Assembly: GCA_030693065.1 (NCBI GenBank)
Contig: JAUYBL010000038.1
Coordinates: forward strand, 248,001 to 312,000
From: Methylococcaceae bacterium
Lineage (GTDB): Bacteria > Pseudomonadota > Gammaproteobacteria > Methylococcales > Methylomonadaceae
Direction: 5' to 3'
DNA: 64,000 nt
The translations under genes and the position numbers were made by a program. The notes under the pieces are model-generated. The model did no database searches. It saw only the letters and a program-made list of their open reading frames with translations, and was not told the DNA's origin. Positions 5,360-64,000 of the stretch are shown here, piece after piece. Position 1 is the first letter of the stretch. Each line of letters opens with the position of its first letter.

Positions 5360-7230
5360 ATCGGGTCGGGGTGACGGGATTGCGCCCGTCACCTCTCCCA
5401 CACCACCGGTAATGCGGTTTTCCGCAACGGCGGTTGGATCCAACAGGTTAAGCTGCTGAGAGCTCTGATGGTGCGTATAAACCATAACGTCTTAAAGTAG
5501 CATTGTTCAGTGCTTTGTGGAGCGCTGGGCTAGCTGCAATTCGCCAAGCGCCGCGCGAACTGCTCGCGGTCTTTTGCAAATCGACATTAACCCCCAATCG
5601 GCGTAAAGCATTAAGTCGCCCCTTCTTGTTATGCCAGCGTTGCCAGAAACATTTCCTTATATGCCGGTGTGTCCAACCGGCCCAGCGCCTGATATGCCAA
5701 CGCTTCGTCGCCAGCTTAAAGTAATTCCACCAGCCAATGCAGTATTTCCTCCATTGCTCAACCAGTTGCTTACTTGTTAAGCTTTGCCGGGCATCCCACA
5801 GTCTGCGCACGCTTGCTTTGTATCTTTCGATGCTCTTGGGTGCAATAGCAATCTCTCCTCCGTCCCGGGTAATCCGAAAACCCAGAAATTGACTTTCCCA
5901 CGGTCGCCCTGTACCACTTTTATTCTGATTAACGCTCAGCTTTAAATGCTTTTCTAGCCATTTAATGAGACTTGCCAGGATGCGTTTCGCACTGCGTTCA
6001 CTGCTTGCATAGATCGTTAGGTCATCTGCATAACGGCAAAAACTGAGCTCACGCTTCTCCAATTCTTTGTCCAGCTTATCCAGGTAACAATTCGCCAGTA
6101 GCGGGCTTAATGGGCTACCTTGCGGAACCCCTTTGCCTCGGCGCTCTATCTTGCCATCAACTATGATCCCCGCTTTAAGATACTTTCGGATCAAATCCAA
6201 AATATCGTTGTCGGTGACTGTTTGGCTAATTTGATGAAGTAGTATGTCATGGTTAACTTCGTCAAAGAATGCGCTAATGTCGAGGTCGATTACCCAGTTC
6301 TTGCCTTGTTGAACAAAAAGCTGTGCCTGCTTTACGGCATGATGTGCACTTAAGTAGGGTCGAAACCCATAACTGTACTGACTAAAACCCCTGTCAAATT
6401 GCACGGTTAAGATTCGGTTCATGGCTTGCTGAATAATTCGGTCTTGTACCGTGGGTATCCCCAGCAATCTTTCACCCCCATTCGGTTTTGGAATTTTCAC
6501 ACCTTTAACCGGACTGGGTATGTAGCTTCCCGTTCTTAACTTGGCTTCGATTTGCGGCCAGTATTGCTCTATATGCCGTTCTGTCTCGGCAATGCTTTTG
6601 CCGTCTATTCCTGCCGCGCCTTTGTTACGTTTTACCGCATCAAGCGCTTCTTGCAGGTTTAACCAGTTAAACATTGCATCCATCATAGACTCTGTTGTCA
6701 TCTTCTTTCGCCTTTTACCGCTAATCCTGGCTTGCATCTTACGGATTGTCGTCCTCAGAGAATCCACTCTGGCTGTTCTTTACCGTCAAGGGGATGGCTG
6801 CCGCAGTTGCAACGTCCGCTTGTTTCAAAATACTCTGTGCTTCCGATTAGCCTCGTTTGGTTTGATGATCTCGATCCTTCGGCCCTTCGCTCCATCCCCA
6901 TTACAAGAACTTCCTCGCTACTATGGCCTCTGCTGACTTCTCCAACACTCTCATGTCGAAGATCTCCCCGGGAAAGGTGCTAAAACTTTCTGCCCGTGCC
7001 GCCAAGCTCTACTTGATGTGTCTTTTGGTAACGGTTGGATTTCGTGTTCCCTAGCACACTCATCGCCCACACCTGCCTCACTGCTTGTTCGTGTTCCTGC
7101 GGTCGTGCATTTGCTACGCGCTTCTTTCAGGCGGGTCTCGCGACTTCCCCCTTGCGTTTCGCTACGGTTGTCGTTACTACTTCCGGTTATCTCCTTTCAG
7201 ATAACAAGTTTTAGCCCATGCCGGGCACAC
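5360..7230 (-). mobile_element. Group II intron, apparently complete (class C-like)
   Basis: The minus strand begins at 7230 with GTGTGCCCGGCATGGGC, a typical bacterial group II 5' end. Near the 3' end a domain V hairpin is visible at 5403-5433 (CCGCCG / TGCGG / AAAA / CCGCA / bulge / CGGTGG), with the CGC-type catalytic triad, followed by a domain VI hairpin at 5370-5393 (GGTGACGGG / CCCGTCACC). The inferred 3' terminus is CCCGAT at 5360, with an A seven bases before the end. The total of about 1.87 kb, an intron protein without an endonuclease domain, and insertion directly beside a strong stem-loop all point to class C. Exact ends are inferred from conserved termini, not from an empty site. 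Confidence 0.88.
5448..6767 (-). CDS. ltrA: Group II intron reverse transcriptase/maturase
   Basis: The 439-residue intron-encoded protein copies intron RNA into DNA during retrohoming and helps the intron fold and splice. Reverse-transcriptase blocks are in order: LQEALDAVKRNKGAAGIDG (residues 35-55), GIPTVQDRIIQQAM near 105, the FSQYSYGFRP block near 130, VIDLDISAFFDEVNHD near 160, KGVPQGSPLSPLLAN near 215, and the catalytic FCRYADDLT near 245. The maturase (X) domain follows, then a short basic C-terminus (RRWAGWTHRHIRKCFWQRWH). There is no HNH endonuclease domain, as in class C introns. The frame is intact with no stops, so the intron may still be mobile. The gene occupies intron domain IV and is read in the same direction as fadE. 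Confidence 0.96.
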   Translation of the reverse strand: MDSLRTTIRKMQARISGKRRKKMTTESMMDAMFNWLNLQEALDAVKRNKGAAGIDGKSIAETERHIEQYWPQIEAKLRTGSYIPSPVKGVKIPKPNGGERLLGIPTVQDRIIQQAMNRILTVQFDRGFSQYSYGFRPYLSAHHAVKQAQLFVQQGKNWVIDLDISAFFDEVNHDILLHQISQTVTDNDILDLIRKYLKAGIIVDGKIERRGKGVPQGSPLSPLLANCYLDKLDKELEKRELSFCRYADDLTIYASSERSAKRILASLIKWLEKHLKLSVNQNKSGTGRPWESQFLGFRITRDGGEIAIAPKSIERYKASVRRLWDARQSLTSKQLVEQWRKYCIGWWNYFKLATKRWHIRRWAGWTHRHIRKCFWQRWHNKKGRLNALRRLGVNVDLQKTASSSRGAWRIAASPALHKALNNATLRRYGLYAPSELSAA

Positions 7231-47515: not shown

Positions 47516-47595
47516 GCTGGTTTTAAGTTATCTTGCATTTTGTAAGAGTGCTTATAATACCACCCCTTTTAAATCCAAAAATCATAGCCCTTAAA

Positions 47596-48984
47596 ATGGA
47601 TTACTTCCCCGTTTTCATGAAACTCCGAGGCCAGCCTTGCTTGGTAGTAGGTGCTGGTGAAATAGCCGCCAGAAAGATCGAGTTATTACTAAAAGCCGAT
47701 GCAAAAATAACAGTAATAGCGCGTGAAATAAGTAAACATGTATCTGAACTACAGGCATTACATAGCTTAAATATTCAACAAAAATCATTTTCTGCAGAAG
47801 ATTTGCTTGATTTTAGATTGGTTATTTCAGCAACCGATAATCAACAAACCAATGAATTGGTCGCTCATACGGCTACAGTGAAAAACATCCCCATTAACGT
47901 TGTTGATAGCCCAGAATTATGCAGTTTTATTTTTCCAGCGATCATTGATCGTTCACCCATTATTGCCGCGGTTACCTCGGGGGGATCGGCCCCCGTATTG
48001 GCAAGATTAATTAGAGCTAAGATTGAGACCGTTATTCCCCCGGCTTACGGCAAGTTGGCTGGGCTTGCAGAAAAATTTAGAACCGCGGTTAAACAGACCA
48101 TTAAAGTACCCGCACAACGGCGAATTTTTTGGGAAAACAACTTTCAAGGGTCAGTTGCTGAATTGGTTTTTGCCGGCAAAGATCAAGAAGCTGCACAGCA
48201 ATTATCAGAAAATCTTGCCAAACACGAACAAGGCACCGATTTCGGAGAAGTTTATTTAATCGGCGCTGGACCTGGTGCACCTGATTTACTTACATTTCGT
48301 GCCTTGCGGTTAATGCAGCAAGCCGATGTCATCGTTTATGACCGCTTAGTCTCGCCAGAAATACTTGAATTAGCTAGGCGTGATTCAGAAAAGATTTATG
48401 TCGGTAAGCAACGACACAATCACGCCTTACCGCAAGAAGACATTAATACCCTGCTTGCCGACTTAGCCAAAGCAGGCAAACGTGTCGTTCGTCTTAAAGG
48501 CGGCGACCCTTTCATATTTGGACGCGGCGGCGAAGAAATTGAAACCCTAATGCAACAAGGTATTAATTTTCAGGTGGTTCCTGGCATTACCGCAGCTTCA
48601 GGCTGCGCAAGTTATGCAGGCATTCCACTGACACACCGAGATCATGCGCAGTCCTGCACCTTTGTCACCGGACATTTAAAAGATAACTCTATCAACTTAA
48701 ATTGGGCGCAATTGGCTGCGCCAAATCAGACAATCGTTATTTATATGGGGCTGGTGGGGCTAGAAAAAATATGCGAGGCATTGATAGCTCATGGCAGCCC
48801 AAAAGACCTACCCATTGCTTTAATACAACAAGGCACAACCGTTAATCAACGAGTCATCACGGGCACGTTAGAAACTCTGCCAAGCTTGATTATTGACAAA
48901 GACATTAAGCCGCCGACACTGATAATCATCGGTACAGTGGTAACGTTACACGACAAATTGGCTTGGTTTCATGGCGACAGTTGA
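47596..48984 (+). CDS. cysG: Siroheme synthase (multifunctional)
   Basis: A 462-residue enzyme that turns uroporphyrinogen III into siroheme, the cofactor of assimilatory sulfite and nitrite reductases. The N-terminal half is the dehydrogenase/ferrochelatase (CysGB): LVVGAGEIAARKIELLLKADA near 14-34 and TSGGSAPVLARLIRAKIE near 125. The C-terminal half is the SAM-dependent methyltransferase (CysGA): VYLIGAGPGAPDLLT near 217, YDRLVS, and VVRLKGGDPFIFGRGGEE near 300. The ATG at 47596 matches the family start MDYFPVFMKLRGQ; the frame is open further upstream. Its product is required by NirB, encoded at the right edge of this window. Confidence 0.96.
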   Translation: MDYFPVFMKLRGQPCLVVGAGEIAARKIELLLKADAKITVIAREISKHVSELQALHSLNIQQKSFSAEDLLDFRLVISATDNQQTNELVAHTATVKNIPINVVDSPELCSFIFPAIIDRSPIIAAVTSGGSAPVLARLIRAKIETVIPPAYGKLAGLAEKFRTAVKQTIKVPAQRRIFWENNFQGSVAELVFAGKDQEAAQQLSENLAKHEQGTDFGEVYLIGAGPGAPDLLTFRALRLMQQADVIVYDRLVSPEILELARRDSEKIYVGKQRHNHALPQEDINTLLADLAKAGKRVVRLKGGDPFIFGRGGEEIETLMQQGINFQVVPGITAASGCASYAGIPLTHRDHAQSCTFVTGHLKDNSINLNWAQLAAPNQTIVIYMGLVGLEKICEALIAHGSPKDLPIALIQQGTTVNQRVITGTLETLPSLIIDKDIKPPTLIIIGTVVTLHDKLAWFHGDS

Positions 48985-56967: not shown

Positions 56968-56984
56968 AGCACTATTCTGGTGCA
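56968..56984 (+). promoter_or_regulatory. NtrC-type enhancer site 1
   Basis: AGCACTATTCTGGTGCA fits GCAC-N7-GTGC exactly and is nearly identical to a classical E. coli glnA NtrC site. It lies about 160 bases upstream of the predicted nitrate operon start, a normal enhancer distance. Confidence 0.72.
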
Positions 56985-56999
56985 AAAATATCAAAAATT

Positions 57000-57014
57000 G
57001 CACATTTGTGATGC
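57000..57014 (+). promoter_or_regulatory. NtrC-type enhancer site 2 (weaker)
   Basis: GCACATTTGTGATGC matches GCAC-N7-GTGC with one mismatch. Its centre is about 31 bp, three helical turns, from site 1, the same spacing as the paired glnA enhancer sites. On its own it would be weak evidence. Confidence 0.45.
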
Positions 57015-57111
57015 GGCAATTCTCCATTTTCAGCCAAACCCAAAAGCACAGCAAAATTTCAACCTATTGTTTTTAATATATTAATCATTAAAAAAGCCTT
57101 AAAAATAAATC

Positions 57112-57127
57112 TGGCATATCGTTTGCT
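57112..57127 (+). promoter_or_regulatory. Sigma-54 promoter of the nitrate operon
   Basis: TGGCATATCGTTTGCT has the sigma-54 layout TGGCA-N6-TTGC with GG (57113-57114) and GC (57125-57126) exactly 10 bases apart. The start should be near 57138, five bases before the first leader hairpin. Confidence 0.75.
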
Positions 57128-57137
57128 TTATATAAAC

Positions 57138-57278
57138 TGAGAACTCCAACGGCGGAGTAAATTACCTCCTGGTTCATTGAACCTTATGACAACGGCGTCA
57201 ACCAAACGAAATGTCTTCGGCATTTTGTTCAGTTGACGCCTTTTTTTTTGACTTTTTTTAATACTTGATGGAGTAACC
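57138..57278 (+). ncRNA. ANTAR-type antitermination leader of the nitrate operon
   Basis: The predicted 5' leader has two hairpins with the same hexaloop AACGGC. Hairpin 1 is ACTCC (57143-57147), loop 57148-57153, GGAGT (57154-57158). Hairpin 2 is TGAC (57187-57190), loop 57191-57196, GTCA (57197-57200). Each loop has A at position 1 and G at position 4, the known ANTAR recognition rule. Hairpin 2 and the terminator 5' arm share 57194-57200, so the two structures exclude each other: ANTAR binding would let transcription reach nrtA. The Klebsiella nasF leader (NasR) and NasT-controlled leaders work this way. A third small hairpin GGTTC/GAACC (57171-57183) fills the linker. The regulator gene is not in the window. 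Confidence 0.82.
57194..57249 (+). terminator. Leader terminator (attenuator) before nrtA
   Basis: Stem GGCGTCAAC (57194-57202) and GTTGACGCC (57232-57240), extended by inner pairs AAATG/CATTT around a TTCG loop, then T9. It lies entirely upstream of the nrtA start codon, so it must be bypassed for expression. Confidence 0.92.
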
Positions 57279-58679
57279 ATGAACTTAACCAGCCTGGTGA
57301 CTATAAAAAAACTGGCAACAGCGCTTTGCACCCTAGCCGCTGTATCGTCTTTAACCTTGTCGGCTAATGTTTATGCCGCCGAAAAACTTGAGAAAGAAAG
57401 CCTGAAATTAGGCTTCATCAAACTGACCGACATGGCGCCGTTGGCCGTGGCGTTGGAAAAAGGCTATTTCGAAGATGAAGGTTTATCTGTGCAACTCGAA
57501 GCGCAAGCCAACTGGAAAGTATTGTTGGATCGCGTTATCAGCGGCGAACTGGACGGTGCGCACATGCTCGCCACCCTGCCCTTCGGTACCGCCATTGGCT
57601 ACGGTACCAAAGCCGATATTGTCAGCGCCTTTACCATGACTTTAAACGGTGATGCGATAACGGTATCCAATGATGTCTGGAAACAAATGAAACCGCAGAT
57701 TCCGGTTAAAGACGGCAAGCTTGTACATCCAGTCAAAGCCGACACCTTAAAACCGGTACTGGAAAAATACAAAGCCGCAGGCAAGCCTTTCAATATGGCG
57801 ATGACCTTTCCGGTCGGCACTCACAATATGAAATTGCGCTACTGGCTGGCGGCCGGTGGGATCAAGCCCGGATTTTATGCACCGCCTGAAGATACTTCCG
57901 GTCAAATTGACGCCGAAGCCATGCTGTCTGTGACTCCGCCGCCGCAAATGCCAGCCACGATGGATTCAGGCACGATTGTCGGCTATTGCGTCGGCGAGCC
58001 GTGGAATCAACAAGCAGTATTTAAAGGCATCGGTGTACCGGTCATCAGCGATTACGAATTGATGAAAAACAGCGCTGAAAAAATCTTCGGCGTGACTAAA
58101 GAGTTCGCGGACAAAAATCCCAACACTCACAAAGCCATCGTCAAAGCCTTGATTCGTGCCTCAATGTGGCTGGATGCGGAGAACAATAAAAATCGTAATG
58201 AAGGCGTGGAAATGTTGTCGCAAAAACAATATGTCGGTGCCGATTACGAAATTCTCGCCAACAGCATGAACGGCACTTTCGAATATGAAAAAGGCGATAA
58301 ACGTCCGCTGGCTGATTTCAACGTGTTCTTCCGTCATAACGGTTCTTACCCATATTACAGCGATGCCATCTGGAGCCTGACGCAAATGCGCCGCTGGGGA
58401 CAAATCAACGAATACAAACCCGATGCCTGGTACCTTGAAACCGCAAAAAAAGTCTATCGTCCTGATGTGTTCATGGCGGCGGCCAAAGCACTGATTGCCG
58501 ATGGTAAAGCCAAAGCCAGCGATTTCCCTGCTGATAGTGAAACAGGCATTAAACCGGCCAGCGCCGAGTTTATCGACGGCGTTAGCTTCGATGCCAATAA
58601 GCCAAATGACTACCTTGCCAAGTTTGCTATCGGCCTTAAAGGCAAGCAAAAAGTGGTCGGCGGCAAGGTGGTTGAGTAA
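57279..58679 (+). CDS. nrtA: Nitrate/nitrite ABC transporter substrate-binding protein
   Basis: A 466-residue periplasmic binding protein of the NrtA/CmpA family that delivers nitrate or nitrite to NrtB. A signal peptide ends near residue 34 (SLTLSANVYAAEK). Family blocks are LGFIKLTDMAPLAVALEKGYF near 42, SGELDGAHMLATLPFGTAIGYG near 88 (cut: LDGAHMLATLPFGTA), MTFPVGTHNMKLRYWLAAGG near 175 and VGYCVGEPWNQQA near 235. Cyanobacterial NrtA is a lipoprotein; no lipobox is seen here. GGAG lies 6 bases before the ATG. Its leader carries the antitermination signals, and it is the first gene of the operon. Confidence 0.94.
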   Translation: MNLTSLVTIKKLATALCTLAAVSSLTLSANVYAAEKLEKESLKLGFIKLTDMAPLAVALEKGYFEDEGLSVQLEAQANWKVLLDRVISGELDGAHMLATLPFGTAIGYGTKADIVSAFTMTLNGDAITVSNDVWKQMKPQIPVKDGKLVHPVKADTLKPVLEKYKAAGKPFNMAMTFPVGTHNMKLRYWLAAGGIKPGFYAPPEDTSGQIDAEAMLSVTPPPQMPATMDSGTIVGYCVGEPWNQQAVFKGIGVPVISDYELMKNSAEKIFGVTKEFADKNPNTHKAIVKALIRASMWLDAENNKNRNEGVEMLSQKQYVGADYEILANSMNGTFEYEKGDKRPLADFNVFFRHNGSYPYYSDAIWSLTQMRRWGQINEYKPDAWYLETAKKVYRPDVFMAAAKALIADGKAKASDFPADSETGIKPASAEFIDGVSFDANKPNDYLAKFAIGLKGKQKVVGGKVVE

Positions 58680-58768: not shown

Positions 58769-58792
58769 ACAATAAAATTCTAGGTGATCAAA

Positions 58793-59809
58793 ATGACTAA
58801 CCAACTGATCAAATTTTTAAACGTAACCGGCCTGACCTGGTTTGTACCCTTGGTAAAAATTGCGGCGGGAGAAAACCCGGTACTGCAAATACGCCAGCTA
58901 CTGTTGATTATTGGCGTACCGGTTATCGCCTTTATGATATTTCTGGGCCTGTGGAGTGTTTCCGCATCTAAGGTCAACACCAGTTTGGGCGCAATACCTG
59001 GCCCTATTGCGGTTTGGCATGAAGCGGGCGGCTTATTAGATGAGCATTACGCCGAGCGAGCTAAAGAAGATGCTTATTATCAGCGCCAGCAACAACGTAA
59101 TGCTGAAAAAACTGCCGCAGATCCGGCCGCTGAAACCAAAACTCGTCCTTACAACGGCCAAGCCACTTACCTGGATAAAATTTTCACCAGCCTTTACACG
59201 GTGTTCGCAGGCTTTGTGATTGCGACCGTTATTGCCGTGCCGCTGGGTTTATTGTGCGGCATGAGCCCGGTATTCAACATTGCTTTCAATCCGCTGATTC
59301 AAATCTTTAAACCGGTGTCGCCGCTGGCATGGCTGCCGATTGTCACCTTAGTGGTCAGCGCAGTGTATGTCACCACCGATGACTCCTGGTTTGAAAAATC
59401 GTTTCTGACTTCGGCTATTACCGTCACCTTATGCTCATTGTGGCCGACCTTGATCAATACCGCCGTGGGCGTGTCATCAGTTGATAAAGATTTGGTGAAC
59501 GTCGGCAAGGTACTGCGCCTTAGCTGGAGCACGCAAATCAAAAAAATCATTATTCCTTCGTCACTGCCCTACATCTTCACCGGTATGCGACTGTCATTAG
59601 GCGTGGGCTGGATGGTGTTGATTGCCGCGGAAATGCTGGCGCAAAACCCTGGCTTGGGGAAATTCGTCTGGGATGAATTTCAAAACGGCAGTTCCAACTC
59701 CTTGGCCAGAATCATGGTGGCCGTGTTCACCATCGGCCTGATCGGTTTTGCTCTGGATCGCATCATGCAGTCGTTCCAAAAGGTTTTCTCGTTCGGTAAG
59801 ACGATTTAA
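58793..59809 (+). CDS. nrtB: Nitrate/nitrite ABC transporter permease
   Basis: A 338-residue inner-membrane permease. The ATG at 58793 is chosen over a GTG at 58784 because the latter lies within the ribosome site TAGGTGAT. One helix near residue 40-60 is followed by a charged loop (about 85-120, rich in Arg, Gln and Ala), then the binding-protein-dependent transport fold with about five further helices and the coupling region VGKVLRLSWSTQIKKIIIPS near 245. It is longer than cyanobacterial NrtB (about 280) through the N-terminal segment. It follows nrtA after a palindromic gap. Confidence 0.93.
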   Translation: MTNQLIKFLNVTGLTWFVPLVKIAAGENPVLQIRQLLLIIGVPVIAFMIFLGLWSVSASKVNTSLGAIPGPIAVWHEAGGLLDEHYAERAKEDAYYQRQQQRNAEKTAADPAAETKTRPYNGQATYLDKIFTSLYTVFAGFVIATVIAVPLGLLCGMSPVFNIAFNPLIQIFKPVSPLAWLPIVTLVVSAVYVTTDDSWFEKSFLTSAITVTLCSLWPTLINTAVGVSSVDKDLVNVGKVLRLSWSTQIKKIIIPSSLPYIFTGMRLSLGVGWMVLIAAEMLAQNPGLGKFVWDEFQNGSSNSLARIMVAVFTIGLIGFALDRIMQSFQKVFSFGKTI

Positions 59810-59822
59810 ACAGGAGCCGGTA

Positions 59823-61577
59823 ATGACTCAATTAATGATTAAACAGGTAGTTAACATGTCCACGACTTCAACGACATTGTCACCCTCTAACGATGCCTTT
59901 TTGCCGCTGCTGGAATTGAAAGCCGTCAGTAAATCTTATGGCGAAGGCAAAGAGAAGGCTTCGATTCTCAACAATATCAACCTGTCTATCAAACAAGGCG
60001 AGTTTATCGCGATTGTCGGTTTTTCCGGCAGCGGCAAAACCACGCTGGTATCCACTATTGCAGGTCTGATACAGGCCGACAGCGGTGCGGTGCTAAAACA
60101 AGGCGAGCCCATCACCAGTCCCGGCCCCGATCGCGGCGTCGTGTTTCAAAACTACTCGCTGATGCCTTGGCTAACTGTTTTTCAAAACGTTGCCTTGGCA
60201 GTGGATCAAATCTTCAAAGATTGGACCGCCGAGCAACGCAAAGCGCACACCGAAAAATATGTGCGCATGGTGAACTTGGGCAACGCCATGAACAAAAAAC
60301 CCGCTGAACTTTCCGGCGGCATGCGGCAACGGGTTAACGTTGCCAGAGCCTTGGCGGCCAATCCGGACATTCTGTTACTGGATGAGCCATTAAGCGCGCT
60401 GGATGCATTAACGCGCGGCAATCTGCAGGATGAGATTTTGAGAATCTGGGAGCAGGAAAAGAAAACCGTCATCCTGATTACCAATGATGTCGATGAAGCC
60501 ATCTACATGGCCGATCGCGTCATTCCGCTCAATCCCGGCCCGGACGCGACATTAGGCCCGGATTTTACCATCGACATCGAACGCCCGAGGGACAGAACGG
60601 CGTTAAATCACAACCCAAAATTCAAGCAGTATCGGGCAGAAATCACCCAATACCTGATGGACATCGGCATGCAGAAAAACCTGGTCTCAGACCAGAAGCA
60701 AATCAAATTGCCGGATGTACGCCCTAACACCAGCAATGATTTCAAACTGGATACGTCGACCTTAAAACCCGGCAAAAACGATTTAGGCAAACCACGCTAT
60801 CTGGAGTTTTCGCAATTGTCGAAAGTCTACCCAACACCCGACGGCAACAGCACCGTTAAGGTCGTGGACGGCTTCGACCTGAAAATGAAAAAAGGCGAGT
60901 TCATTTCCATCATCGGCCATTCCGGTTGCGGTAAATCGACGGTGTTATCGATGACGGCGGGCTTAAACAGCATCTCGGAAGGCGTGATTATTCTGGACAA
61001 CAAAGAAATTGCCGCAGCCGGGCCGGATCGCGGCGTCGTATTTCAAGCACCCAGTCTGTTTCCGTGGCTCACGGCTTTCGAAAATGTCATGTTGGGGGTC
61101 GATAAAGTCTATCCGCACGCCTCGCAATCGGAGCGCGAAGACATCGTTGAATACTATCTAACCCGCGTCGGCCTAGTCGATTCCATGTTTAAAAAAGCCG
61201 CCGACATGTCCAACGGCATGCGCCAGCGTGTCGGCATCGCCCGCGCCTTTGCCTTGTCACCCAAGCTGTTATTGCTGGACGAACCGTTCGGGATGCTGGA
61301 TTCCTTAACCCGTTGGGAATTACAAGACGTGTTGATGGAAGTCTGGGACAGAACCCAAGTCACCGCGATTGTGGTCACTCATGATGTCGATGAAGCCATT
61401 TTGCTGGCCGACCGCGTGGTGATGATGACCAACGGCCCGCACGCCACCATCGGCAAAATTGAAGAAATCGATTTACCCCGGCCGCGTAGCCGACAAGCGT
61501 TATTGACTCACCCAGATTATTACCGCTATCGGGAAAGCATCTTGAGCTTCCTCACTGAATGCGACCACACCCATTGA
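59823..61577 (+). CDS. nrtC: Nitrate ABC transporter ATPase with two fused nucleotide-binding domains (NrtC/NrtD-like)
   Basis: A 584-residue protein holding both ATPase domains of the transporter. The ATG at 59823 follows AGGAG by 6 bases. Domain 1 (residues about 25-270): Walker A GFSGSGKTT, Q-loop VVFQNYSLMPW, signature LSGGMRQR, Walker B ILLLDEP, switch ITNDVDEA (Asn replaces His). A charged linker (270-320) follows. Domain 2 (about 325-570): Walker A GHSGCGKST, Q-loop VVFQAPSLFPW, signature MSNGMRQR (first Gly replaced by Asn), Walker B LLLLDEP, switch VTHDVDEA. In cyanobacteria NrtC and NrtD are separate, and NrtC carries a regulatory NrtA-like domain; here that domain is missing. The two losses fall in the same ATP site (see findings). 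Confidence 0.92.
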   Translation: MTQLMIKQVVNMSTTSTTLSPSNDAFLPLLELKAVSKSYGEGKEKASILNNINLSIKQGEFIAIVGFSGSGKTTLVSTIAGLIQADSGAVLKQGEPITSPGPDRGVVFQNYSLMPWLTVFQNVALAVDQIFKDWTAEQRKAHTEKYVRMVNLGNAMNKKPAELSGGMRQRVNVARALAANPDILLLDEPLSALDALTRGNLQDEILRIWEQEKKTVILITNDVDEAIYMADRVIPLNPGPDATLGPDFTIDIERPRDRTALNHNPKFKQYRAEITQYLMDIGMQKNLVSDQKQIKLPDVRPNTSNDFKLDTSTLKPGKNDLGKPRYLEFSQLSKVYPTPDGNSTVKVVDGFDLKMKKGEFISIIGHSGCGKSTVLSMTAGLNSISEGVIILDNKEIAAAGPDRGVVFQAPSLFPWLTAFENVMLGVDKVYPHASQSEREDIVEYYLTRVGLVDSMFKKAADMSNGMRQRVGIARAFALSPKLLLLDEPFGMLDSLTRWELQDVLMEVWDRTQVTAIVVTHDVDEAILLADRVVMMTNGPHATIGKIEEIDLPRPRSRQALLTHPDYYRYRESILSFLTECDHTH

Positions 61578-61597: not shown

Positions 61598-62917
61598 ATG
61601 ACCACATCACAACGCAAAACCAGAGTTTCCATCTCCCTGTTCGCTTTAACTTTAAGTTCAAGCCCGGTCTCAGCCGACATCACCAAAGAAGTCGAAGATG
61701 CCCTTAACTTTTACCATTACGGCAAAAACGGCGCGGTAAAACTTGATCTTAACTATCGCTATGAAAATGTCGATCAGGATAAAGGCACTAAAGTGGCGGC
61801 GGGTAAATACAAAGGCCAATATCCTGATACCGCCAATGCCAATACCGCTCGCTTACGCGCCGGTTTGTTATCGCCCACGTTTTACGGTTTTCAAGGTTAT
61901 GCCGAATACGAAGGCAATCTTGCCATGCAGGAAGACTTCAACAGCACCCGTAATGGACTCACACAGTTTTCAACAGTTGCAGACCCGGAAAAAAGTGAAC
62001 TGAACCAACTATGGCTGAGCTATGCCGGTATCCCAGACACCATGATCAAAGGCGGTCGGCAACGTATCAAGCTTGATGACGACCGGTTTATCGGCAACGT
62101 TGGCTGGCGACAAATGGAAACCACCTTCGATTCGGTGCTGATTACTCATAACAACCAACAGCTATTTGGCCTAACCGTAAACGCAGGCTATATCGGCAAT
62201 ATCCAAACCTTTACCGCAACCACTGAAAACATCAACGCACCGATTCTTAACGTTAGTTACAAAGTGGGAGATTACGGCACTGCAATTGGCTATGGCTACT
62301 GGCTGGATTACACCGAGAAAGAAAATTTCGAAAAATCCAGTGAAACCTATGGGTTACGTTTTACGAATTTTCAAAAACCCGGCGACTCGTTCAAATTAAG
62401 CGACAACTACGGCTTGGTTTACACCGCCGAATGGGGCTATCAACAAGATTACGGACACGGCAAAACAGCTTATGACGCTAATCGGCTCAATTTGATGGGC
62501 GGCTTTACTGCTTACAACTTTACTGTTCAAGGTGCGATGGAGCAGTTGGATGGTAAAGGCGTAAACAAAACGTTTGATACGCCACTGGGCACCAATCATG
62601 CTTTTCAGGGCTGGGCCGACTTATTTTTGGTTACGCCTAAAGACGGTATTCGCGATGTATTCGCGACTGTCAGCAGCATATTTGATCGAGGCGAAGTGGT
62701 TTTAACCGGCGTTTTCCATAACTTTACCGACGACACCGGACAACATCAGTATGGCAAGGAATGGGATTTTCAGGCTACCAAAAAATTCGGCAAACATTAT
62801 TCATTGCTGGCCAAGTACGCTTATTACAGCTCGGACAACTCTATCCCGGCCGCACCCGGTGCCTTTACTACAACAGATACCCAAAAGATTTGGCTTCAAG
62901 GCAATATTAGTTTTTAG
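61598..62917 (+). CDS. Outer-membrane porin, alginate-export-like
   Basis: A 439-residue outer-membrane beta-barrel. The signal peptide MTTSQRKTRVSISLFALTLS is cleaved after VSA near 27. The family start DLNYRYENVDQDKGTKVA, the strand LSYAGIPDTMIKGGRQRIKLDDDRF (cut: IKGGRQRIKLDDDRF) near 150 and the terminal aromatic LQGNISF are typical of the alginate-export/OprE-like porin group. Its place between the ABC transporter and nirB in the nitrate operon suggests it brings nitrate across the outer membrane. It starts 20 bases after nrtC, with AAGGA before the ATG. Confidence 0.85.
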   Translation: MTTSQRKTRVSISLFALTLSSSPVSADITKEVEDALNFYHYGKNGAVKLDLNYRYENVDQDKGTKVAAGKYKGQYPDTANANTARLRAGLLSPTFYGFQGYAEYEGNLAMQEDFNSTRNGLTQFSTVADPEKSELNQLWLSYAGIPDTMIKGGRQRIKLDDDRFIGNVGWRQMETTFDSVLITHNNQQLFGLTVNAGYIGNIQTFTATTENINAPILNVSYKVGDYGTAIGYGYWLDYTEKENFEKSSETYGLRFTNFQKPGDSFKLSDNYGLVYTAEWGYQQDYGHGKTAYDANRLNLMGGFTAYNFTVQGAMEQLDGKGVNKTFDTPLGTNHAFQGWADLFLVTPKDGIRDVFATVSSIFDRGEVVLTGVFHNFTDDTGQHQYGKEWDFQATKKFGKHYSLLAKYAYYSSDNSIPAAPGAFTTTDTQKIWLQGNISF

Positions 62918-63146: not shown

Positions 63147-64000
63147 ATGACCACAAAAAAAACATTAGTCGTTATCGGTAATGGCATGGTCGGGCAAAGC
63201 TTTTTAGCCAGCCTAGTCGCCAGCCCGATTAAAAACGACTATCAAATCGTCACCTTTTGCGAAGAACCCAGAGCCGCTTACGACCGGGTACATTTGTCGG
63301 AATTTTTTTCCGGCAAAACGGCAGAAGATTTGTCCATGGTTGAACCCGGTTTTTTTGAAGAACATGGCATCACCATTCATATCGGCGATAAAGCCTCAAA
63401 AATTTATCGTTTAGCAAAAACGGTACTCTCTGAAAAAGGCGTCAGTATCTCTTACGACAAACTGGTTTTCGCGACCGGCTCTTACCCGTTTGTGCCGCCG
63501 GTACCGGGACATGATCGTCCACAGTGCTTGGTTTATCGAACCATTGAAGATCTTGAAGCAATGGCCGCTGCTGCAAAAAACGGCAAGGTCGGCACCGTGG
63601 TCGGCGGTGGCTTGCTGGGGCTGGAAGCCGCTAAGGCGTTAAAAGATTTAGGCTTAAAAACCCATGTTGTGCAATTTGCACCACGCTTAATGGAAATGCA
63701 GATGGATGATGCCGGTGGCGCGATGCTGCGCCGCAAAATTGAAGAGCTCGGCATCACCGTGCATACCGGCAAAAACACCATCGACATCACCGATGGTAAG
63801 CACTGCACCAATAAAATGGTGTTTGCCGATGGTGATGAACTGGAAACTGACTTGGTGCTGTTTTCTGCGGGCATTCGTCCGCGCGATGAACTGGCCAGAG
63901 ACTGCGCGCTACATGTTGGTGCGCGCGGCGGCATTGTCATCGATAACCAATGCAAGACGTCTGACCCGGATATTTACGCGATTGGTGAATGTGCGTTGTG
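63147..64000 (+). CDS. nirB: Assimilatory nitrite reductase large subunit, NAD(P)H-dependent (3' end outside the window)
   Basis: The first 284 residues of NirB, which reduces nitrite to ammonium using NAD(P)H, FAD, 4Fe-4S and siroheme. The visible part is the FAD/NAD domain: KTLVVIGNGMVGQSFLASL at residues 5-23, RAAYDRVHLSEFF near 43, FATGSYPFVPPVPG near 110, VVGGGLLGLEAAKAL near 152 and DPDIYAIGECAL at the edge. Siroheme and cluster domains would follow to the right. The CysG product made at 47596 supplies siroheme. It is read in the same direction as the transport genes and presumably under the same leader control. Confidence 0.93.
   Translation, partial: MTTKKTLVVIGNGMVGQSFLASLVASPIKNDYQIVTFCEEPRAAYDRVHLSEFFSGKTAEDLSMVEPGFFEEHGITIHIGDKASKIYRLAKTVLSEKGVSISYDKLVFATGSYPFVPPVPGHDRPQCLVYRTIEDLEAMAAAAKNGKVGTVVGGGLLGLEAAKALKDLGLKTHVVQFAPRLMEMQMDDAGGAMLRRKIEELGITVHTGKNTIDITDGKHCTNKMVFADGDELETDLVLFSAGIRPRDELARDCALHVGARGGIVIDNQCKTSDPDIYAIGECAL

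Follow-up and report, generated by a model that had tools for sequence, protein, structure and literature searches.

How is the nitrate assimilation operon of a methanotroph switched on, and which parts of its leader RNA take part in the switch? The question is raised by the DNA directly upstream of nrtA in a stretch of 64,000 nucleotides, the whole of which is referred to here as the window. The host is a Methylobacter-like methanotroph and the region is the control region of its nas operon; a comparison of NasT sequences places metagenome-assembled genomes of Methylobacter and Methylococcaceae as its nearest named relatives. The operon begins on the + strand with nrtA (57279-58679; NMT1_2), whose name as a nitrate ABC transporter binding protein rests on operon context, and continues on the same strand with the permease gene nrtB (58784-59809; a match to the nitrate ABC permease model ntrB below cut-off), the double ATPase gene nrtCD (59823-61577; TIGR01184 ntrCD, above cut-off), a gene for a porin-like outer membrane protein of the Alginate_exp family (61598-62917) and nirB, for the nitrite reductase large subunit (63147-64000), which extends beyond the window. 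Past the window, also on the + strand, nirB is followed by a PhzF-like gene, an FAD oxidoreductase gene and a nasA-like nitrate reductase gene, and we infer that the genes from nrtA through nasA are carried on one transcript. NirB requires siroheme, and a reading frame at 47533-48984 (+), approximately 8 kb upstream of the leader, is presumably that of a CysG-like siroheme synthase. A first-pass annotation had proposed that two layers of control, an NtrC/sigma-54 promoter and ANTAR-type antitermination, meet ahead of this operon.

The promoter layer was examined first within the window. An exact NtrC-type site, GCAC-N7-GTGC (GCACTATTCTGGTGC, 56969-56983), lies 143 bp before the -24 element and a second site with one mismatch (GCACATTTGTGATGC, 57000-57014) lies 112 bp before it, neither being assigned to a strand. 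The centers of the two sites are 31 bp apart, exactly as the annotation had placed them. The sigma-54 -24/-12 element that it had named ahead of nrtA was likewise present (TGGCATATCGTTTGCT, 57112-57127, + strand), with GG-N10-GC spacing and the GC at 57125-57126, from which a transcript start is expected near 57138. Counts of these motifs in the 64-kb window were at chance level: 19 NtrC patterns with up to one mismatch were found versus 29 expected, one exact NtrC site versus 1.08 expected, and 9 sigma-54 patterns versus 7.7 expected, while a close pair of NtrC sites arose in 5 of 100 shuffles of the window. Because the motif counts from this single window were not significant, the weight of the evidence was placed on relatives. 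Both NtrC (732 bits, above cut-off) and RpoN are encoded in the genome, so that the -24/-12 element with its GG-N10-GC, the putative upstream NtrC sites and the two regulator genes that a promoter of this type is predicted to need are all found together.

The leader runs from the expected start near 57138 up to nrtA at 57279 and contains three hairpins and a terminator, all on the + strand. The hairpin that the annotation had listed first, P0 (ACTCC-AACGGC-GGAGT, 57143-57158), has a hexaloop with A1 and G4 and is likely the docking site of NasT. The antiterminator hairpin P2 (TGAC-AACGGC-GTCA, 57187-57200) has the identical hexaloop and shares bases with an intrinsic terminator (GGCGTCAAC...GTTGACGCC followed by nine T residues, 57194-57249), the 5' arm of which (57194-57202) overlaps the loop and stem of P2 and pairs with a 3' arm at 57232-57240. 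Both hexaloops and the overlapping terminator upstream of nrtA were thus as first described. The description as a pair of hairpins was nevertheless incomplete, since a third hairpin, M (GGTTC-ATT-GAACC, 57171-57183), which has a triloop and had been overlooked, stands between P0 and P2, and most relatives have three hexaloop hairpins. RNA folding of 57138-57256 gave -39.4 kcal/mol (z = -5.2), a value equaled by none of 200 shuffles; this is the terminator state, compared to -27.5 kcal/mol with P2 forced, and P0, M, and P2 all fold before the 3' arm of the terminator has been made. A hexaloop pair with an overlapping terminator occurred once in the window and in none of 100 shuffles when the two hairpins were allowed to be up to 40 nt apart, a limit chosen after this leader had been viewed. 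Most of the parts are thus near chance level in the window alone, and the firm evidence for the arrangement is its conservation. P0 and P2 have what is expected of an ANTAR leader, namely two hexaloop stem-loops with A1 and G4 and a closing pair of the C-G type, the second sharing bases with the terminator. Their linker, 28 to 29 nt long and 29 nt when 4-bp stems are counted, is longer than the 5 to 12 nt described for Enterococcus faecalis eut leaders (PMC3369931) and the 2 to 25 nt by which actinobacterial ANTAR RNAs were defined (PMC8164766). We read the leader as a probable three-hairpin form of the ANTAR leader. Scanned against Rfam at gathering score, the window gave no match at the leader; its only hits were the group II intron domains RF02001 and RF01998 at 6882-7147 (-), above gathering score.

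We then compared the region with its counterparts in the family. NrtA was searched for in 151 family genomes and matched in 92, and upstream DNA was retrieved for 85, the window's own genome included; the remaining 7 had broken, fragmented or cut genes and were left out. The P2 motif, the hexaloop overlapping the terminator, was found behind GG-N10-GC before nrtA in 76 of the 85 regions, again including our own, was lost in L047 and was absent in 8 others. These 76 consist of 73 leaders parsed with a sigma-54 element plus L054, which is shortened and has no clear P0 or M, L069, which has the GG-N10-GC element only, and L009, which sits at a contig end. One of the 73, L042, differs in its P2 stem and lacks a T-run; it belongs to the same genus as L047. 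In all 73 parsed leaders TGG-N9-TGC is located 74 to 84 nt before P2 (73/85 regions). An exact NtrC site was present within 260 nt upstream in 23 of the 73, compared to 0.06 in mononucleotide shuffles. When one mismatch was allowed, 59 of the 73 had a site, compared to 2.66. Such shuffles preserve base composition only, and the relatives are not independent. The sites are positioned from -167 to -92 relative to the -24 element.

The distinct leaders were aligned in 72 rows, omitting L009, L047, L054, L069, and L066, the last being identical to L065. In this alignment 94.8% of the cells pair, and 9 of 13 pairs and 69 cells are changed on both sides, a covariation score reached by none of 500 shuffles. 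Changes on both sides were found for all six pairs of P0 and for three of the four pairs of M, and P2 is nearly invariant, as is expected from its double use. The loops are conserved at the positions that define the ANTAR hexaloop: A1 and G4 are present in 61 and 67 of the 72 P0 loops, with the other positions more variable, in 67 and 67 of the M loops, with positions 2, 3, 5, and 6 variable, and in all 72 P2 loops. About 11 of the 72 leaders have an altered P0 (12 by script; by eye, L072 and L085 are intact and L028 is altered). Terminator closing arms with a T-run were found in 67 leaders, and four of the five missed seem by eye to fail only the T-run rule. The distance from P0 to P2 is 27 to 37 nt, 29 nt here, and that from M to P2 is 3 to 6 nt. 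A covariance-model search of the window's genome returned this locus at E 6.6e-12 and, as the next match, one of E 0.67, giving no second leader there. With an E limit of 0.05, the same model matched 90 of the 151 family genomes, several of which have two to four copies, and the matches weaker than E ~0.001 are probably due to chance. Two genomes of genus g15 (G143 and G109) have three such leaders within ~7 kb (L128, L130, and L131), compared to the single one in the window's genome.

Which protein might act on this leader was investigated next. The annotation had named a genome without any ANTAR-domain gene as a finding that would speak against it; two ANTAR proteins are encoded. It had also called for a search for NasR or NasS/NasT genes, and a nasS-nasT pair was found (L004:4588-6493): one of the two ANTAR proteins is a NasT with REC and ANTAR domains, adjoining NasS, as a NasS/NasT system demands. 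A NIT-domain search of the genome gave no match, the control genomes being likewise silent, and neither ANTAR protein shows a NIT domain. The nasS-nasT pair suggests that the regulator is most likely NasS/NasT rather than NasR. The pair lies on a contig other than that of the leader. In three relatives (G149, G064, and G041; L123, L124, and L125), nasS-nasT precedes nrtA by 0.3 to 4 kb in the same orientation, and a gene of 178 amino acids that stands between nasS-nasT and nrtA in L123 is beside nasT in the window's genome, suggesting a rearrangement or an assembly break. The other ANTAR protein is a response regulator beside a HisKA_2/HWE kinase (L005:5465-6938, contig C22). An alignment read by eye, with the EutV residues placed through EutV-like rows, gives it Phe and Arg at the positions of the Tyr and Met by which EutV is described as holding the loop (PMC8934654); its target may be another RNA, or it may not bind RNA at all.

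Leader and NasT were found together. A NasT-like match (E 1e-10) accompanied 75 of the 77 leader loci (L047 included), the genomes of the other two being 93% and 79% complete, and none of the 8 genomes without a leader had such a match (Fisher p = 9e-10, which ignores kinship). This count takes the NasT-like matches as one group, and the one in G076, at 27% identity, may belong to the other ANTAR type. Outside the family, 18 of 369 genomes of the class matched the covariance model at E 0.001. Six of these were dropped since they had no hexaloops with a T-run, and the other 12 were compared with nas proteins: all 12 leaders precede NrtA/NasS-, NasA- or NirB-like genes, and 9 have a NasT match upstream. 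Three hairpins with A1/G4 hexaloops were present in four of the 12 (L248, L253, L255, and L262); in Leeia oryzae (L189), three were found by pattern, the first being missing from the fold. Leaders of Rheinheimera, Alishewanella, and one other gammaproteobacterium have hexaloop pairs 28 to 29 nt apart (L158, L172, L181, L184, L185, and L201), with sigma-54 elements ahead of the five inspected for them (all but L185), and in the Rheinheimera-type leaders the middle hairpin is weak and differs in L158.

In most relatives the close partner of P2 is M, the loop of which is lost here. We asked how this loss is related to the type of NasT. The NasT of the window's genome is shared by six genomes of the family, itself included (window-type NasT, 77 to 100% identical to it), and is only 26 to 39% identical to the family's usual NasT. 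A single clade (99/96) unites the 25 usual NasTs sampled, and the window type groups apart from them, with Methylovulum (99/99). In all six window-type genomes the M stem is kept and its loop is 3 to 5 nt: ATT, ACT, ATT, and AAGAT in the four genomes of the window's genus, AGTTT in G149 of another genus, and ATA in the Methylovulum genome. In each of the six, P0, with the loop AACGGC, is the sole canonical partner of P2. Conversely, M is a canonical A1/G4 hexaloop adjacent to P2 in 59 of 68 leaders from genomes without the window-type NasT, two of which (L046 and L074) had no NasT found. The link between M loop and NasT type was first drawn from five genomes, and the Methylovulum genome, examined afterwards, agreed. 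The difference, 59/68 versus 0/6, has a Fisher p of 2.7e-5, which ignores kinship, and the independent events behind it may be as few as two. On an NrtA tree of 36 rows covering 30 of the 85 regions, two changes are required to explain the window-type label, a single change being enough in 0% of 200 bootstrap trees; the tree includes L029 (G057), which has neither leader nor NasT and was labeled as the usual type.

The 9 other leaders with a non-canonical M have 5-nt loops (L020 and L044), a degenerate hairpin (L045), a mismatched closing pair (L038 and L041) or G at loop position 1 (L053, L061, L076, and L077), so that NasT type does not by itself account for loss of the M loop. Both P0 and M are non-canonical in L076 and L077; together with the leaders in which one of the two is altered, these two indicate that leaders commonly, but not always, retain one or both upstream hexaloops. 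The P0-M-P2 layout was not seen in L140 to L142, from genomes with a window-like NasT (61 to 64% identical), and the Methylumidiphilus leader L268 resembles, by eye, a plain pair with a short linker.

Taken together, the co-occurrence with NasT, the presence of genes for NtrC and RpoN, and the covarying helices bear out the two-layer control originally proposed for this operon, and we consider it very probable that NtrC/sigma-54 and NasT antitermination jointly place the nas operon under control by nitrogen and nitrate. Under nitrogen shortage, phosphorylated NtrC at the two upstream sites would activate the sigma-54 polymerase, as the sites and genes suggest. The transcript would fold into P0, M, and P2 in turn, after which the 5' arm of the terminator would take over part of P2 and transcription would stop. 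In the presence of nitrate or nitrite, NasS would release NasT, as in Paracoccus, where either compound is reported to split NasS-NasT and NasT to bind the nasA leader (PMC3795266). Once free, NasT would dock close to the 5' end, on the hexaloop of P0, and then move to and hold P2, a route like that proposed for a single ANTAR dimer, from the first hairpin to the second (PMC8934654); with P2 held, the terminator would be unable to form. M would be a docking loop in most relatives and a spacer in the window's lineage. That M serves here as a spacer, its kept stem bringing P0 and P2 together, is a suggestion that we put forward tentatively. For EutV, both hairpins and their spacing are reported to matter (PMC3369931, PMC8934654), and small loops may be kept out by the Met plug (PMC8934654). 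We hold with similar reserve the broader interpretation that gammaproteobacterial nitrate operons have three-hairpin ANTAR leaders, that NasTs differ in the hairpins they use, that with the divergent NasT the M loop was lost and its stem became a spacer pairing distant hexaloops, and that NasT type and RNA changed together at least twice.

The alternative that survives best is that P0 and P2 make up a conventional two-hairpin ANTAR leader, with M a decayed duplicate that forms a stabilized linker of no consequence. The loss or alteration of the M loop in several lineages and the two-hairpin leaders with short linkers in other genera are consistent with it. However, compensatory changes preserve the M stem even where its loop is gone, and A1 and G4 persist in the M loops of the alignment while the other four positions drift. 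The 29 nt between P0 and P2 also count against it: in EutV, antitermination is described as cut or abolished by a P1-P2 linker of 14 nt or one lengthened by 20 nt (PMC3369931, PMC8934654), which argues against P0 and P2 as an ordinary pair over this distance unless M folds. We regard this alternative as possible, if rather unlikely. It is more doubtful still, and in our view improbable, that NasT bypasses P0, P2 alone being enough and P0 merely protecting the 5' end of the transcript. P2 is indeed the most conserved part and P0 is altered in some leaders; yet A1 and G4 of the P0 loop are retained more than its other positions, and P0 is the last canonical partner in every window-type genome. 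A leader peptide or other RNA-level signal governing the terminator in place of NasT, for which a 16-codon frame with an ATG at 57186 and the presence of some ATG between start and P2 in 34 of the 73 leaders could be cited, was rejected as highly implausible because an ATG is kept at the equivalent place in just 3 of the 73, and no ribosome site is visible before it, no Rfam family is found at gathering score, and the leader co-occurs with NasT. Equally little credence is given to action at this leader by the second ANTAR protein, the only other one found in the genome, which was set aside because Phe and Arg replace the loop-contact Tyr and Met, many leader genomes show a single ANTAR match at E 1e-10, and it is NasT that tracks the leader.

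Two-layer control by Ntr and nitrate-responsive antitermination is already known. In the open-licence literature searched, represented mostly by titles and abstract openings, neither a third ANTAR hexaloop hairpin nor hairpin use that depends on NasT type was found. There is no settled account of how a single ANTAR dimer makes use of two hairpins, and natural leaders with three docking loops, a long-distance pair, or a kept stem without its loop are ready-made constructs for the study of docking, hand-over, and spacing. Our results also suggest that searches restricted to two hairpins and short linkers would miss such leaders.

The closest known system is Klebsiella nasF, the precedent for joint Ntr and NasR control that the annotation had cited and that PMC5424462 bears out. 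Like nasF, the leader described here combines Ntr control, A1/G4 hexaloop hairpins, and a terminator ahead of a nitrate operon (PMC5424462, PMC7496416). Unlike here, where NasS/NasT are found, NasR itself senses nitrate in Klebsiella, and the nasF leader is described in those sources as having two hairpins, whereas a third stands between them here. In its regulator, the system resembles the NasS/NasT systems of Paracoccus, Azotobacter, Pseudomonas, and Bradyrhizobium, in which an NrtA-like sensor and an ANTAR protein are described as acting on a leader before the nas genes (PMC3795266, PMC5424462, PMC6759348). The Paracoccus nasA leader differs in that hairpins HI and HII are described, the portions available making no mention of a conserved third hexaloop hairpin. 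With the EutV/EutW eut leaders, our leader shares the A1/G4 hexaloop hairpins, the second of which excludes the terminator (PMC3369931, PMC8934654). As described in those papers, the eut system has two hairpins, a linker of 5 to 12 nt, and a kinase partner, whereas the leader studied here has three hairpins, with P0 and P2 separated by 29 nt.
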